A program made the translations under genes and the position numbers. A DNA stretch of 64,000 bases, from NCBI RefSeq assembly GCF_017377775.1, contig NZ_JAFVLN010000011.1:1-64000 (forward strand), in the 5' to 3' direction. The DNA comes from Streptomyces sp. VRA16 Mangrove soil (GTDB lineage: Bacteria; Actinomycetota; Actinomycetes; Streptomycetales; Streptomycetaceae). Positions 14,348 to 51,705 of the stretch are shown here, in pieces; positions within the stretch are counted from its first letter, which is position 1; every line of letters starts with the position of its first letter. The notes under the pieces were generated by a model. The model was not told the DNA's origin and made no database searches. It saw only the letters and a list, made by a program, of their open reading frames with translations.

Positions 14348-14409
14348 CACCGTTTTCGAGTCCACCGTTGTACGAGTCCACCGTTGTACGAGCCCACCGT
14401 TTTCGAGCC
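14348..14409. repeat. Four-copy 15/16-bp tandem repeat before the flavoprotein gene
   Basis: Copies start at 14348, 14363, 14379 and 14395 with unit lengths 15, 16, 16 and 15. The outer two are CACCGTTTTCGAG plus TC or CC; the inner two are CACCGTTGTACGAG plus TC or CC. The array ends one base before the GGGGAG ribosome site of the next gene, so it probably lies in its leader or promoter. It could be a multi-site operator. Confidence 0.75.
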
Positions 14410-33962: not shown

Positions 33963-34042
33963 TCCTGGGCTGTCGGTCCGGACCCCTATCGTTGCGAGGG
34001 AAGTCGAGAGCGGTCGGGTACGGCAGGACGGGACTGGGGTTT

Positions 34043-35992
34043 ATGAGCGAGGTGACCGAGAGCGAGGCGCTTGCCACGCTCCATCGCGTCTTCGGGTACG
34101 ACGCCTTCCGCGGTGATCAGGAAGCGATCATCGAGCACGTGGTCGCGGGCGGTGACGCCGTCGTCCTGATGCCGACCGGTGGCGGCAAATCGCTGTGCTA
34201 CCAGATTCCGGCCCTGGTCAGACCGGGTACGGGCGTTGTCGTCTCGCCGCTGATCGCGCTGATGCAGGACCAGGTGGACGCGCTGCGGGCGCTCGGCGTG
34301 CGCGCCGGGTTCATGAACTCGACGCAGGACTTCGACGAGCGCAGGACCGTCGAGGCCGAGTTCCTCGCGGGCGAGCTGGACGTCATCTATCTGGCGCCGG
34401 AGCGGCTGCGTCTGGACTCCACGCTCGACCTGCTCTCCCGCGGCAAGATCTCCGTCTTCGCCATCGACGAGGCGCACTGTGTCGCGCAGTGGGGGCACGA
34501 CTTCCGGCCCGACTACCTGTCCCTGTCGGTGCTGGGGCAGCGCTGGCCGGACGTCCCGCGGATCGCGCTCACGGCGACGGCGACGCACGCCACGCACCAG
34601 GAGATCACCCAGCGGCTCGGCATGCCGCAGGCCCGGCACTTCGTGGCCAGCTTCGACCGGCCCAACATCCAGTACCGGATCGTGCCCAAGGCCGACCCGA
34701 AGAAGCAACTGCTGACGTTCCTGCGGCAGGAGCACGAGGGCGACGCGGGCATCGTCTACTGCCTGTCCAGGAAGTCCGTGGAGGCGACCGCCGAGTTCCT
34801 GTGCAAGAACGGGATCGAGGCGGTGCCGTACCACGCGGGACTCGACGCGGGGACGCGGGCGAGGCACCAGGCGCGGTTCCTGCGCGAGGACGGGCTGGTG
34901 GTCTGCGCGACCATCGCGTTCGGCATGGGCATCGACAAGCCGGACGTGCGGTTCGTGGCCCACCTCGATCTGCCGAAGTCCGTCGAGGGCTACTACCAGG
35001 AGACCGGGCGCGCCGGGCGTGACGGGCTCGCGTCCACGGCGTGGATGGCGTACGGGCTGCAGGACGTCGTCCAGCAGCGGAAGCTGATCAACATGGGGGA
35101 GGGCGACGAGGCGTTCCGGCGCCGGGCCTCCTCCCACCTCGACTCGATGCTCGCGCTGTGCGAGACCGCGCAGTGCCGGCGGGCCCAGCTGCTCACCTAC
35201 TTCGGGCAGGAGGCGGCCGAGTCGTGCGGCAACTGCGACACGTGCCTCACGCCGCCGGAGACCTGGGACGGGACCGTCGCCGCGCAGAAGATCCTGTCGA
35301 CCGTGGTGCGGCTCGACCGCGAGCGGCGGCAGAAGTTCGGCGCGGGCCAGATCATCGACATCCTGCTCGGCAAGCGCACCGCCAAGGTCATTCAGTTCGA
35401 CCACGACCAGCTCTCCGTCTTCGGCATCGGCGAGGAGCTGAGCGAGGCCGAATGGCGGGGCGTGGTGCGGCAGTTGCTGGCGCAGTCGCTCATCGCGGTC
35501 GAGGGTGAGTATGGGACGCTCGTGCTCACCGAGGAGAGCGGGGCCGTGCTCGGGCGGCAGCGGGAGGTGCGGCTGCGCAAGGAGGCGCCGAAGCCTGCCT
35601 CCGCGTCCCGTTCGGGGTCACGGGAGCGCAAGGCCAAGACCGTCGCCGCCGATCTGCCCGAGGAGCTGCAGCCGGTCTTCGAGGCGCTGCGGGCCTGGCG
35701 GGGGGCGCAGGCGAAGGAGAACGGGGTGCCGGCGTATGTGATCTTCCACGACGCGACGCTGCGGGAGATCGCGATGCAACGGCCCACGTCCGTCGCGCAG
35801 TTGGGGACGATCGGGGGCGTCGGCGAGAAGAAGCTGGCCACGTACGGGGAAGGGGTGCTGGCGGTTCTGACGGGGCTCGACGGGGCGGGTACCGGATCGG
35901 GGCCCGGGGCGGCGGCCGGTCAGGACGAGGACCTGTTCGACGCGGGGCCGGAGCCCGAGCCGGATCCGGAGTTCGACGACGTCGACTGGTGA
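34043..35992 (+). CDS. recQ: ATP-dependent DNA helicase RecQ
   Basis: 649-residue superfamily-2 3'-5' helicase for recombination and fork repair. Walker A is [13 protein letters not shown] (Lys49), Walker B/DEAH is [15 protein letters not shown] (Asp142), motif VI is [12 protein letters not shown]. The zinc-binding RQC region has four cysteines ([20 protein letters not shown]). A winged helix follows, then an HRDC domain near residues 545-620 and an acidic tail. ATG 34043 gives the standard N-terminus; an upstream GTG at 33992 is possible. It stands alone after the nuo terminator. Confidence 0.95.
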
Positions 35993-36110
35993 GAGACGCC
36001 GGGGCGTCAGTGACGGTCAGCGAGTGGTCAGCGGACGGTAAGCGGGTCGTGGCTCACTGGTGAGGAGCCGGTGGGCTGCCGGCTCCCATCACGCGGACCG
36101 TGGTGGCCTC

Positions 36111-36403
36111 GCACGAGAAGTCGCACGAGAAGCCGTACGTGAGAGCGGTACGGGAAGTCGCACGAGAAGCCGTACGGGAAGCCGTACGAGAGAGCGGCAC
36201 GAGAAGCCGCACGGGAAGTCGCACGAGAAGCCGTACGAGAGAGCGGCACGAGAAGCCGCACGGGAAGTCGTACGAGAAGCCGTACGAGAAGTCGCACGAG
36301 AAGCCGTACGAGAGAGCGGCACGAGAAGCCGCACGGGAAGTCGCACGAGAAGCCGTACGAGAGAGCGGCACGAGAAGCCGCACGAGAAGTCGCACGAGAA
36401 GGG
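36111..36403. repeat. 293-bp minisatellite of 24 units
   Basis: The block parses without remainder into nineteen 12-bp units G[CT]ACG[AG]GAAG[CT]C (last one ending GG) and five 13-bp units GTACG[AT]GAGAGCG. A higher-order cycle of three 12-mers plus one 13-mer (49 bp) recurs. It fills the 420-bp gap (35993-36412) between recQ and the next gene, ending nine bases before the latter's ATG. Each 13-mer shifts the frame, so it is unlikely to be coding, although most frames are open. A related core recurs at 51061-51140. Confidence 0.9.
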
Positions 36404-36412
36404 GGAGCTCGT

Positions 36413-36994
36413 ATGACGCGCACATCGGACATGGTGAGCCGCATCCAGCAGGCCGTCGACGGCACGGAGGCCGTGGTCGGGGCCATCGGGGACACCCAGT
36501 GGCACCGTCCCACCCCGTGCCCCGGATGGGACGTGCGCGCGGAGCTGAACCATGTGGTGGGCGGTATCCGGATCTACGCCGCCGAGCTGACCGGCGGTGA
36601 GGCCGGCGCCGCCCACGAGGCGGACTGGCTCGGCGACGACCCGCGGGGAGCCTTCGCCCGGGCCGCCGAGCTCGACCGGGCCGCCTGGCGGCGCCCCGAC
36701 GCGCTGGACGGGGAGGTGCGCCTGGGGTTCGGCACGGTGCCCGCACCGATGGCCGCGCAGATCCACCTCACCGAGCTGATGGTGCACGGAGTCGACCTTG
36801 CGGTGGCGGTCGGCGCGGAGCGGCTGATCGACGAGGTGGCCTGCGCGCGGCTGCTGGCCGAGATGCGGGCCATGGACTTCGGGACGTTCCGGCGGCCGGG
36901 CATGTTCGGCCCGGAGATACCGGCGCCCGCGGGCGCTCCTGCGCACCGCGGGCTCCTGGCCTTCCTGGGCCGCGATCTCGCGGCCGCTGCCTGA
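36413..36994 (+). CDS. DinB/MDMPI-like protein of the TIGR03086 type
   Basis: 193-residue four-helix-bundle protein related to mycothiol-dependent maleylpyruvate isomerases. Family features are TQWHRPTPCPGWDVRAELNH near residue 30 and QIHLTELMVHGVDLAVAVG near 120, with His residues suited to metal binding. Such proteins are thought to be mycothiol-dependent enzymes; the substrate is unknown. The ribosome site GGGGGAG (36401-36407) grows out of the last repeat unit, so the minisatellite directly abuts the translation start. Confidence 0.82.
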   Translation: MTRTSDMVSRIQQAVDGTEAVVGAIGDTQWHRPTPCPGWDVRAELNHVVGGIRIYAAELTGGEAGAAHEADWLGDDPRGAFARAAELDRAAWRRPDALDGEVRLGFGTVPAPMAAQIHLTELMVHGVDLAVAVGAERLIDEVACARLLAEMRAMDFGTFRRPGMFGPEIPAPAGAPAHRGLLAFLGRDLAAAA

Positions 36995-37051
36995 CGGCCG
37001 AGTCCCGGCCGCGGGCCGAGGCCGGGATCCGGCGGGGGAGGCCGGGGTGTG

Positions 37052-38311
37052 TCAGCCGGTGGCCGCGACGATCCGGCCGGTGACCTCTCCGAGCCCGACC
37101 CGCACGCCGTCGGGCCCCGGGGCCCAGGCCGTCATCGTCACCACGTCGCCGTCCTCCAGGAAACCCCGCTTGCCGTCGGGGAGTTCGAGGGGCCGCTGAC
37201 CGTTCCAGGTCATCTCGATCAGCGAGCCGCGCTCGTTCTCCTCGGTGCCGCTGATGGTGCCCGAGCCGTACAGGTCGCCGGTACGCAGGGAGGCGCCGTT
37301 GACCGTCATGTGGGCCAGCATCTGGGCGCCCGTCCAGTACATGCCGGAGAAGGGGGGTTCGGAGACGGGGTGGCCGTTGAGGGAGACCGTGATGTGCAGG
37401 TCGTAGCCGGCCGGGTCGAGGGCCGGGTCGGAGTCGTCCAGATAGGGGAGGAGGGGGACCGTGCGGGCGGGGGAGGGCACTCGGGCCGCGTCCAGGGCCT
37501 CAAGTGGCGTGATCCACGCGGAGATCGACGTCGCGAAGGACTTGCCGAGGTGCGGGCCGAGCGGCACCGTCTCCCAGTTCTGGATGTCGCGCGCCGACCA
37601 GTCGTTGAGGAGGCAGACGCCGAAGACGTGGTCGCGGTAGGCCGACAGCGGTACCGCCGTGCCCTGCGGTGAGGGGACGCCGACGACGTAGCCGACCTCC
37701 GTCTCGATGTCGAGGCGGACGGAGGGGCCGAAGACCGGTGCCGGATCGGTGGGCGCCTTGCGCTGGCCCGACGGGCGTACGACGTCGGTGCCGGAGACCA
37801 CGACCGTTCCGGAGCGGCCGTGGTAACCCACCGGCAGATGCTTCCAGTTGGGCTTCAGGGGCTCTTCGTCCGGGCGGAAGAGACGGCCCAGGTTCGAGGC
37901 GTGGTTCTCGGACGCGTAGAAGTCGACGTAGTCCGCGACGTCGAAGGGGAGGTGCAGAGTGACCGAGGAGAGCGGGTGCAGATGCAGGCGCACGGCCTCG
38001 CGGTGGGCCGGCACCGTCACCCAACCGGTCAGCGCGCGGCGTACGTCCGACCATGTCGTACGGCCCGCGGCGAGGAAGGAGTTGAGGGTGGGGCGGGACA
38101 GCAGCTCGGCGTAGGGCGAGCCGAGCGCCGTGGCGGCCGCGCCCGCGTCCAGGACGTGGTCGCCGAGGCGGACGCCGACGCGCGGGTCCTCGCCGGGGCG
38201 GGAGAAGACTCCGTAAGGGAGGTTGTGCGGGCCGAAGGGGTGGCCTTCGGGGAGGTCGAGCGGGTCGGGCGAGTCGAGCGGGGTGTGCTCGGACGCGGCT
38301 GCGGGTGCCAT
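37052..38311 (-). CDS. Fumarylacetoacetase
   Basis: 419-residue hydrolase that splits fumarylacetoacetate to fumarate and acetoacetate, the last step of tyrosine catabolism. Active-site blocks are VDFYASENHASNLGRLFRPD (metal Asp and catalytic His), PVGYHGRSGTVVVSGT, DIETEVGYVVG and NDWSARDIQNWE. The C-terminus has GDLYGSGTISGTEENERGS. ATG 38311 fits the family start; no strong ribosome site is seen. It is divergent from the ATP-grasp gene. No other homogentisate-pathway gene is nearby. Confidence 0.93.
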   Translation of the reverse strand: MAPAAASEHTPLDSPDPLDLPEGHPFGPHNLPYGVFSRPGEDPRVGVRLGDHVLDAGAAATALGSPYAELLSRPTLNSFLAAGRTTWSDVRRALTGWVTVPAHREAVRLHLHPLSSVTLHLPFDVADYVDFYASENHASNLGRLFRPDEEPLKPNWKHLPVGYHGRSGTVVVSGTDVVRPSGQRKAPTDPAPVFGPSVRLDIETEVGYVVGVPSPQGTAVPLSAYRDHVFGVCLLNDWSARDIQNWETVPLGPHLGKSFATSISAWITPLEALDAARVPSPARTVPLLPYLDDSDPALDPAGYDLHITVSLNGHPVSEPPFSGMYWTGAQMLAHMTVNGASLRTGDLYGSGTISGTEENERGSLIEMTWNGQRPLELPDGKRGFLEDGDVVTMTAWAPGPDGVRVGLGEVTGRIVAATG

Positions 38312-38517
38312 GCCTACGTGCCTCACTTTCCAAGGTGGACCACACGGGTGGGCCACACGGTACGTGGGAGTCGGGCGTTCGGGCAGTGCCTAAAGAGTTC
38401 GCAATGTCCGAATGACCCGTTGATGGATTGGTCGGTTCCGGCTTAGCGTCTATGTCCGGCGGACGCGGACGGGGTGGATCCGGGTTCGAAGGGGGATCGG
38501 GACACGTGGGGGGACCC

Positions 38518-50189: not shown

Positions 50190-51057
50190 GGCGACGGCGT
50201 CGCCGGTACGGCTCGTGTGGACGCTCGGGCTGCTGCGCAGCGAACTCGGCGTGACCTTCCGGCGCTGGCGCACCCGCGCGCTCTTCGCGGTCCTGGCCGG
50301 GGTGCCGGTCCTCATCGGCGTGGCGGTCAAGATCGAGACGAGCGACGGTTCGGGGATCGGCGGGGGCGGGGCGGGTGGCGGGGGCGGCCCGGCGTTCATC
50401 GCGCAGATCACGAACAACGGACTGTTCCTGGTCTTCACGGCGCTCGCCGCGACGCTGCCGTTCTTCCTGCCGATGGCGGTCGGGGTCGTCGCGGGCGACG
50501 CGATCGCGGGCGAGGCGAACGCCGGGACGCTGCGTTATCTCCTGGTCGCCCCGGCGGGCCGCACCCGTCTGCTGCTCACCAAGTACGCGACGACGATGGC
50601 GTTCTGCCTGGTCGCGACGTTGATCGTGGCGGTCTCCGCGCTGATCACCGGCGCGATCCTGTTCCCGCTCGGCGATCTCGTCACCATCTCGGGCACGCAG
50701 ATCAGCTTCGCGGAAGGGCTGTGGCGGGCGTTCCTGATCGCCCTGGTCGTCGCCGCCTCACTGCTCGGCATCGCCGCTCTCGGTCTGTTCGTCTCGACGC
50801 TCACCAGCAGCGGCATCGCGGCGATGGCGACGACCGTGGGACTGCTGATCACCGTGCAGATCCTCGACCAGATCCCCCAGCTGCACGCCATCCAGCCGTA
50901 TTTCTTCTCGCACCACTGGCTCTCCTTCGCCGACCTGATGCGCGAACCGGTCTACTGGGACGACCTGATCAAGAACCTGGAGATCCAGGCGCTGTACGCG
51001 GCGGTGTTCGGCTCGGCGGCGTGGGCGCGGTTCACGGCGAAGGACATCACCGCCTGA
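50176..51057 (+). CDS. ABC transporter permease
   Basis: 293-residue ABC-2 type membrane component with about six spans, first at ALFAVLAGVPVLIGVAV and then LFLVFTALAATLPFFLPMAV. GDAIAGEANAGTLRYLLVAP is the coupling-helix region typical of this class. The large Gly-rich loop (SDGSGIGGGGAGGGGG) is low-complexity. ATG start lies inside the ATPase gene. A four-unit tandem repeat begins three bases after its stop. Confidence 0.9.
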   Translation: MSQAEATASPVRLVWTLGLLRSELGVTFRRWRTRALFAVLAGVPVLIGVAVKIETSDGSGIGGGGAGGGGGPAFIAQITNNGLFLVFTALAATLPFFLPMAVGVVAGDAIAGEANAGTLRYLLVAPAGRTRLLLTKYATTMAFCLVATLIVAVSALITGAILFPLGDLVTISGTQISFAEGLWRAFLIALVVAASLLGIAALGLFVSTLTSSGIAAMATTVGLLITVQILDQIPQLHAIQPYFFSHHWLSFADLMREPVYWDDLIKNLEIQALYAAVFGSAAWARFTAKDITA

Positions 51058-51060
51058 CGA

Positions 51061-51140
51061 CGGCTTCTCGTACGGGACTACGGCTTCTCGTACGGGACTA
51101 CTGCTTCTCGTAAGGGACTACTGCTTCTCGTAAGGGAACC
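51061..51140. repeat. Four tandem 20-bp units at the end of the FMN reductase gene
   Basis: Units of 20 bp: two identical (CGGCTTCTCGTACGGGACTA), then CTGCTTCTCGTAAGGGACTA and a last one ending GGAACC. On the minus strand each encodes a form of PYEKQ-stop, so the array is a duplicated gene end; the reductase uses the TAG at 51118. The minus-strand core TACGAGAAGC is the core of the 12-bp minisatellite at 36111-36403. Confidence 0.85.
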
Positions 51141-51705
51141 GCGCGAGCGGCGCCTCCCGTGCGAAGAACGTCTTGGCGTTCCTCAGCGCCTCCTCGTCCT
51201 TGAGTACGTCGCCGGGCCTGCTGCCGTTGCCGAACAGGACGCCGCCGAAGCGCATGCCCATGTACGCGGCCGAGTTGGTGAGGGTGCCGACCAGCGGGTC
51301 GGCGACCTCGGTCTCCTCGTGGGCGAGCGCGGTCACGCCCCACAGGGTGCGTCCGGCGAGGGTCTCCTTGAAGTCGACGCCCGGGGTGCGCAGCCAGCCC
51401 GACCAGTGGTCCAGGTAGCGCTTGGTGGACGAGGAGACCGAGTACCAGTACAGCGGCGAGGCGATCACGATGTCGGTCGCGGCGAGCGTCGCGTCCAGGA
51501 GCAGCGCGGTGTCGTCGCCCTCGGGCCGGACGTGGTCGCTGTCGTGGCGCAGGTCCTCGAAGTCGGGGAGCGGGTGCGCGGCCAGGTCGATCCAGCGCCG
51601 GTCGACGTCCGACGGCAGTTGCTCGGCGGCCCTGCGGGCCAGGATCTCGGTGTTGCCGCCGGGGCGGCTGCTGCCGAGGAGGAAGAGGAAGTTCCGGGTG
51701 GGCAT
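51118..51705 (-). CDS. NAD(P)H-dependent FMN reductase-family flavodoxin-like protein
   Basis: 195 residues with a flavodoxin-like fold. The FMN phosphate loop is FLLGSSRPGGNTEILAR, and the flavin-stacking loop is ASPLYWYSVSSSTKRYLDHW. LWGVTALAHEE and AYMGMRFGGVLFGNG follow. Such enzymes reduce flavins, quinones or azo and nitro compounds. The 3' end (FPYEKQ) lies in a four-copy tandem repeat. A long palindrome lies immediately upstream of the start and is likely its operator. Confidence 0.88.
   Translation of the reverse strand: MPTRNFLFLLGSSRPGGNTEILARRAAEQLPSDVDRRWIDLAAHPLPDFEDLRHDSDHVRPEGDDTALLLDATLAATDIVIASPLYWYSVSSSTKRYLDHWSGWLRTPGVDFKETLAGRTLWGVTALAHEETEVADPLVGTLTNSAAYMGMRFGGVLFGNGSRPGDVLKDEEALRNAKTFFAREAPLARFPYEKQ

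Follow-up and report, generated by a model that had tools for sequence, protein, structure and literature searches.

The tandem array that ends at the start codon of an MDMPI-type gene, between recQ and fahA, is probably a young, lineage-specific minisatellite which has little or no effect on the gene behind it and to which RecQ is a bystander. It most likely expanded de novo, by slippage or unequal exchange, and has little function. The features on which this reading is based are collected in Table 1; the window is the whole stretch of DNA analysed (64,000 nucleotides).

Table 1 Features of the recQ–fahA region and of a second tandem array in the window
Feature	Position	Strand	Basis or remarks
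recQ (ATP-dependent DNA helicase RecQ), upstream neighbour	33992–35992	+	NCBIfam recQ equivalog, E 2.1e-228
Lineage-specific DNA separating the convergent recQ and fahA (about 1.06 kb)	35993–37051	.	Leader, array, MDMPI-type gene, hairpin
Hairpin, putative recQ terminator	36064–36086	+	Perfect 8-bp stem, 7-base loop, no T run
Minisatellite, 24 units	36111–36403	+	Tandem-repeat search, unit parsing
AAGGGGGAG, Shine-Dalgarno-like, within the last (degenerate) unit	36399–36407	+	Sequence reading; 5 bases before ATG 36413
MDMPI-type gene (TIGR03086 family metal-binding protein)	36413–36994	+	Profile matches
Inverted repeat between convergent genes, putative bidirectional terminator	36997–37033	.	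18-nt arms, 83% complementary
Fumarylacetoacetase gene (fahA)	37052–38356	-	TIGR01266, E 3e-122; convergent neighbour of recQ in relatives
Second array, 4.1 x 20 bp	51056–51137		Four-fold tandem repeat of the end (final codons and stop) of a minus-strand gene
Gene ending in the second array, FMN-reductase-like	51118–51705	-	By eye, from the sequence alone

Architecture of the repeats

Units were delimited at ACG, which gave steps of 12 or 13 bases throughout and a total of 293 bp, made up of 19 units of 12 bp and five of 13 bp when 12 bp are allotted to the degenerate last unit. TRF described the array with a period of 12 (23.9 copies, score 350) and gave higher scores to periods of 49 (370) and 122 (465), whereas the maximum score in 50 dinucleotide-preserving shuffles of the 64-kb window was 79. 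The position, the number of units and their two lengths, as given in the earlier note on this DNA, were therefore borne out by both TRF and unit parsing. The accompanying statement that the array parses perfectly into two unit types has to be corrected: there are two length classes, but units 1–23 comprise eight distinct sequences, in the order abcdbefgdbfghbabfgdbfga.

The five 13-bp units begin at 36137, 36186, 36235, 36308 and 36357, that is, in steps of 49, 49, 73 and 49 bp. The higher-order cycle of 49 bp that had been described is thus visible but not continuous, as it is broken once, by the 73-bp step that results from two additional units (15–16). The cycle, f-g-d-b, is exact in units 7–10 and 17–20 and has one base changed in units 11–14. 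The identity of the array with itself is 0.84 at an offset of 49, 0.81 at 122 and 0.90 at 171. Three unit variants occur only once. Units 3 and 6 lie towards the left end, but unit 13 is in mid-array, and because of the latter divergence at the edges is only weakly shown. A perfect small hairpin, GCGGC-ACGAGAA-GCCGC, is found four times, each formed by a 13-bp unit and its successor, and CGTACG palindromes or half-sites are present in the cycles.

Bacterial satellites are defined, in PMC6749651, as at least four tandem repeats of 10–200 nt, and 24 units of 12/13 bp fall within this definition. The array is also internally regular (TRF score 465, at most 79 in the 50 shuffles), regularity being judged here as excess over chance and not by the measure of that survey. 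As the units stand head-to-tail, without spacers, the array is not a CRISPR array.

The locus in related genomes

The recQ DNA was searched in 392 genomes of the genus and matched in 352; the nearest relatives found in this way were G312, G059, G103, G161 and G308 (86–89% identity). In all of these except G161, recQ and fahA are convergent direct neighbours, 56–357 bp apart. Homology to the window stops at 35883–35995 and restarts at 37062–37068, and neither the array nor the MDMPI-type gene is present in the recQ–fahA spacers of these four genomes (G312, G059, G103 and G308). G161 has other DNA after recQ, and fahA was not in the flank examined. The comparison was extended to 29 recQ loci, including the five nearest relatives and excluding the window's own, and at none of them was the MDMPI-type gene found within 1.3–1.5 kb after recQ. 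From the absence of gene and array at the recQ–fahA junction of the relatives it follows that both are particular to the present lineage.

Among the same 29 loci, fahA lay in the flank of 19, with a gap of up to about 360 bp in 11 and with 680–1315 bp of other DNA in eight (L107, L108, L109, L115, L116, L119, L120 and L121); it was not in the examined flank of the other ten. The gap therefore takes up other DNA in further species and seems to accept inserts repeatedly. In near relatives, copies of GCGCAGTTCCCCGCGCCCCTG were observed in both orientations at L099:3480-3850 and in the recQ–fahA spacer of L100; they look like a REP-type dispersed element.

The presence of recQ upstream had led to the suggestion that its product, which handles repeat instability, might be connected with the array. 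The gene does encode a RecQ with DEAD, Helicase_C, RQC, RecQ_Zn_bind and HRDC domains. A part of RecQ in causing the array, or a partnership with it, found no support: in four of the five nearest relatives recQ adjoins fahA and the array is absent, so that the link appears incidental. The array follows recQ directly only in a loose sense, as 118 bp, including the hairpin listed in Table 1, separate it from the recQ stop codon. A terminator scan that required a T run found none.

The downstream gene, which had been called DinB-like, matches TIGR03086 (E 1.3e-47, 162.1 bits, cut-off 83) and MDMPI_N (E 7.2e-14, 53.1 bits, cut-off 24.2). It is a member of the former family, and the older label is acceptable if taken loosely. 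Relatives 64–65% identical to it are present in Actinomadura, Frankia and Sphaerisporangium. Within the genus, a relative at 55% identity was found in one of 100 other genomes (G068) and a wider search matched the gene in 4 of 391 others; more distant family members were found in all 101 genomes searched. The gene is poorly conserved and accessory. Neither recQ nor fahA occurred in the examined flanks of 31 loci of its relatives, and none of eight leaders of homologous genes had a comparable array; the leader of the G068 homologue has two short repeats, each of about two copies.

The array itself is almost unique in its genome. One other, weak match of 43 bp was found in the 9.75 Mb of its own genome, where 17 of the 22 matches to an 18-base core lie inside the array, and a dispersed repeat family was rejected on these grounds. 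In the genus, matches of at least 59.9 bits were obtained in 11 of 391 other genomes (the own genome is left out and four genomes that matched in the gene are set aside), against 6 of 392 with the reversed array at the same bit score (Fisher p 0.33). Both counts are lower bounds, as scoring was limited to one or two candidates in each genome, and bit scores were used instead of E-values because the forward query had 995 bases and the control 293. When 198 other genomes were scanned with a strict dimer pattern, 5 matched, the same number as with the built-in control. On these figures the array is not supported as an element that recurs across the genus. The 18-base core, with one mismatch allowed, gave 284 matches in 100 other genomes against 184 for the control, a 1.5-fold excess which Tyr-Glu-Lys codons could explain. 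No second array of the same kind was found among 60 relatives, drawn partly from other genera.

By eye, some of the forward matches in the genus appear to be non-coding and some coding, whereas the reversed matches look mostly like repetitive coding DNA; this leaves a weak hint against the reading favoured here. Purine-rich repeats of about 12 bp were also noticed by eye directly before apparent starts in other genomes of the genus (L047:1501-1592, L048:1501-1736 and L039:1501-1562), although those in L039 could also belong to the end of the gene before them.

An origin from a mobile element or plasmid was discarded, as searches of plasmids and viral contigs gave it no support. Leader plus array had no match among plasmids, relatives of the gene on seven plasmid records were at most 50.5% identical to it, and the exact dimer pattern was absent from the viral contigs.

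The following course of events would account for the young minisatellite. Between the convergent recQ and fahA there came to be a gene of the MDMPI/TIGR03086 family, a position that the comparison shows; that it was inserted here, and not lost from the relatives, is presumed. Tandem duplication may then have affected 12 bp of purine-rich sequence in its leader that adjoin or overlap the Shine-Dalgarno sequence. Replication slippage and unequal exchange would have added 12/13-bp units first and, to judge from the unit order, blocks of 49, 73 and 122 bp later, and the GCGGC-ACGAGAA-GCCGC hairpin may favour slippage. Expansion by slippage or unequal exchange was already proposed in the earlier note; the near-identical 49-bp cycles, the block-wise order and the lack of the stretch in four of the five nearest relatives uphold it.

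Leader and possible function

Together with its continuation, the last unit reads ACGAGAAGGGGGAGCTCGT, directly followed by ATG 36413, so the Shine-Dalgarno sequence sits within the last repeat and the array does end in the ribosome site of the next gene, as had been noted. No in-frame ATG, GTG or TTG exists upstream of this start as far as the previous stop codon; the array is thus outside the protein and would be a leader or spacer that is not translated and affects the gene little, if at all.

Folded as RNA, the plus strand of the array is less structured than all 160 window stretches compared (one or two of which overlap it) and less structured than 94% of the 150 stretches of the genome, drawn from 638, that match it in G+C content. 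As single-stranded DNA it is more structured than all 200 of its own shuffles (z -3.3), partly owing to the four hairpins. Several points speak against the favoured reading: the predicted weak structure of the plus strand, which might mark an open leader under selection; the single-strand fold; the weakly shown divergence of the edges; and the place of the array, which abuts a start codon, as do the expression-linked fpg1 repeats of M. tuberculosis (PMC2734929).

A rival reading is a contingency or rheostat locus, in which slippage would vary the unit number in subpopulations and so shift transcription or translation of the MDMPI-type gene. This is unlikely. It is favoured by the end of the array at the ribosome site and by precedents in M. 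tuberculosis. In the spacer between rnc and fpg1, repeats extend from 40 bp after the rnc stop to the fpg1 start and vary among 32 isolates, longer arrays being associated with more fpg1 mRNA (PMC2734929). Promoter repeats of the same species vary in copy number at 1e-2 to 1e-3 per chromosome (PMC12817950). The leader was folded with 0, 1, 2, 4, 8, 12, 16, 20 and 23 upstream units, for which the predicted accessibility of the Shine-Dalgarno sequence was 0.98, 0.58, 0.78, 0.93, 0.78, 0.74, 0.80, 0.76 and 0.76, respectively. There is no trend with unit number over this range, which speaks against tuning by leader structure. The predicted accessibility of the AUG is somewhat lower with 12–23 units (0.15–0.36) than with 0–8 (0.35–0.46), which is in favour of a contingency locus; the fold model, which is silent on transcription and bound proteins, lends structural tuning little support overall. 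A sigma-70-like promoter was not found either, in a scan of low power that was limited to that type and would be expected to give none in shuffles as well. Finally, close homologues are few in the genus, so the gene would be no obvious target for bet-hedging.

Comparison with these systems places the array in a known class. Like the rnc–fpg1 repeats, it consists of lineage-specific actinobacterial direct repeats in complex order that start shortly after one stop codon and end at the next start; its units are of 12/13 bp, not 37, 26 and 18/16 bp, and it is known from the sequence of one genome, whereas variation and the link to mRNA were measured for rnc–fpg1 (PMC2734929). It shares with the promoter repeats a place upstream of a gene and a number that could change, but those duplicate promoter sequence and in the present array no promoter was recognised by the low-power scan (PMC12817950). 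In the prokaryotic survey S. coelicolor is listed with 38 satellites, or 4.20 per Mb if the column is understood correctly. The array, too, has four or more copies of a repeat within 10–200 bp and belongs to a genome like that of Streptomyces; it is of the same kind, distinguished by its broken 49-bp higher-order cycle and by abutting a start codon (PMC6749651). Should it be inert, the array illustrates cleanly how quickly a minisatellite is born in a high-G+C actinobacterial genome, in DNA that the nearest relatives found lack. If unit number tunes the gene, the effect of repeat length reported for mycobacterial fpg1 would extend to a Streptomyces-like bacterium and there act on an accessory gene.

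That the array provides putative binding sites for a protein or an RNA-binding factor is highly improbable. The CGTACG half-sites, the four exact hairpins and the single-strand fold would suit such a role, but the array is essentially unique in its own genome, has no Rfam match up to E 1, and is matched in the genus about as its reversed control is. Moreover, given the pitch of the DNA helix, a spacing of 12/13 bp does not keep sites on one face, which also argues against binding sites.

It is just as improbable that a real array has been assembled with the wrong copy number or length. The assembly is a draft of 41 contigs and the array exceeds common short-read lengths, but a 307-kb contig continues through it and the unit variants serve as internal landmarks.

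Least credible of all is a short coding region, a frame of 118 aa at 36060–36416 coupled to the MDMPI-type gene by an ATGA overlap: within the array five of the six frames lack stops and the remaining one contains a single stop, so the open frame carries little meaning; the 13-bp units rotate the frame and switch the peptide among three unrelated repeats, so that no constant peptide results; and neither a Pfam match at E 0.001 nor, by eye, a ribosome site before 36060 was found.

Other tandem repeats in the genome

A census of 864 kb of the same genome (the window and 800 kb more) gave 87 arrays with a TRF score of at least 80, 19 of at least 200 and 5 of at least 350; the array next to recQ ranks third. 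In 396 kb of five relatives the corresponding numbers were 21, 5 and 3. A crude gene caller placed 31 of the 59 arrays scoring at least 100 in non-coding DNA; with 79% of the DNA called coding, it certainly overlooks genes. Many of these arrays lie shortly after stop codons or between convergent genes, and a few are near starts.

The second array of Table 1, likewise lineage-specific, belongs to a gene end, and in five relatives that have this end no such copies occur in the 160 bases compared there. The 14-mer TACGAGAAGCCGTA is exact both in this array and in the one beside recQ, 15 kb apart. Of the 17 matches that the window contains when up to two mismatches are allowed (0.18 expected), the two arrays account for 16, and elsewhere in the 864 kb the exact 14-mer does not occur. 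The shorter TACGAGAAG is frequent (18 occurrences, 6 of its reversal), in line with what Tyr-Glu-Lys codons would give. It is very doubtful that TACGAGAAGCCGTA is a favoured seed for minisatellites at gene edges in this lineage and that purine-rich, weakly structured arrays adjoining starts are length-tunable leaders of newly acquired genes.

The core GATTGCCCAAGGCGG recurs in many places of the genome as tandem arrays called non-coding: L206:4497-4684, L208:7620-7828, L182:13635-13794 and L213:238-330, and further L194:7749-7828, L204:12936-13027, L189:17582-17663 and, with one base different, L185:8192-8302. In the window, three to four copies of an imperfect 16-bp repeat, CACCGTTGTACGAGTC, are found at 14348–14409, shortly upstream of an apparent GTG start. 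A candidate unstable locus elsewhere in the genome, L187:9746-9954, consists of about 30 copies of the 7-bp unit CCGCAGA, 19 bp from a called stop codon.
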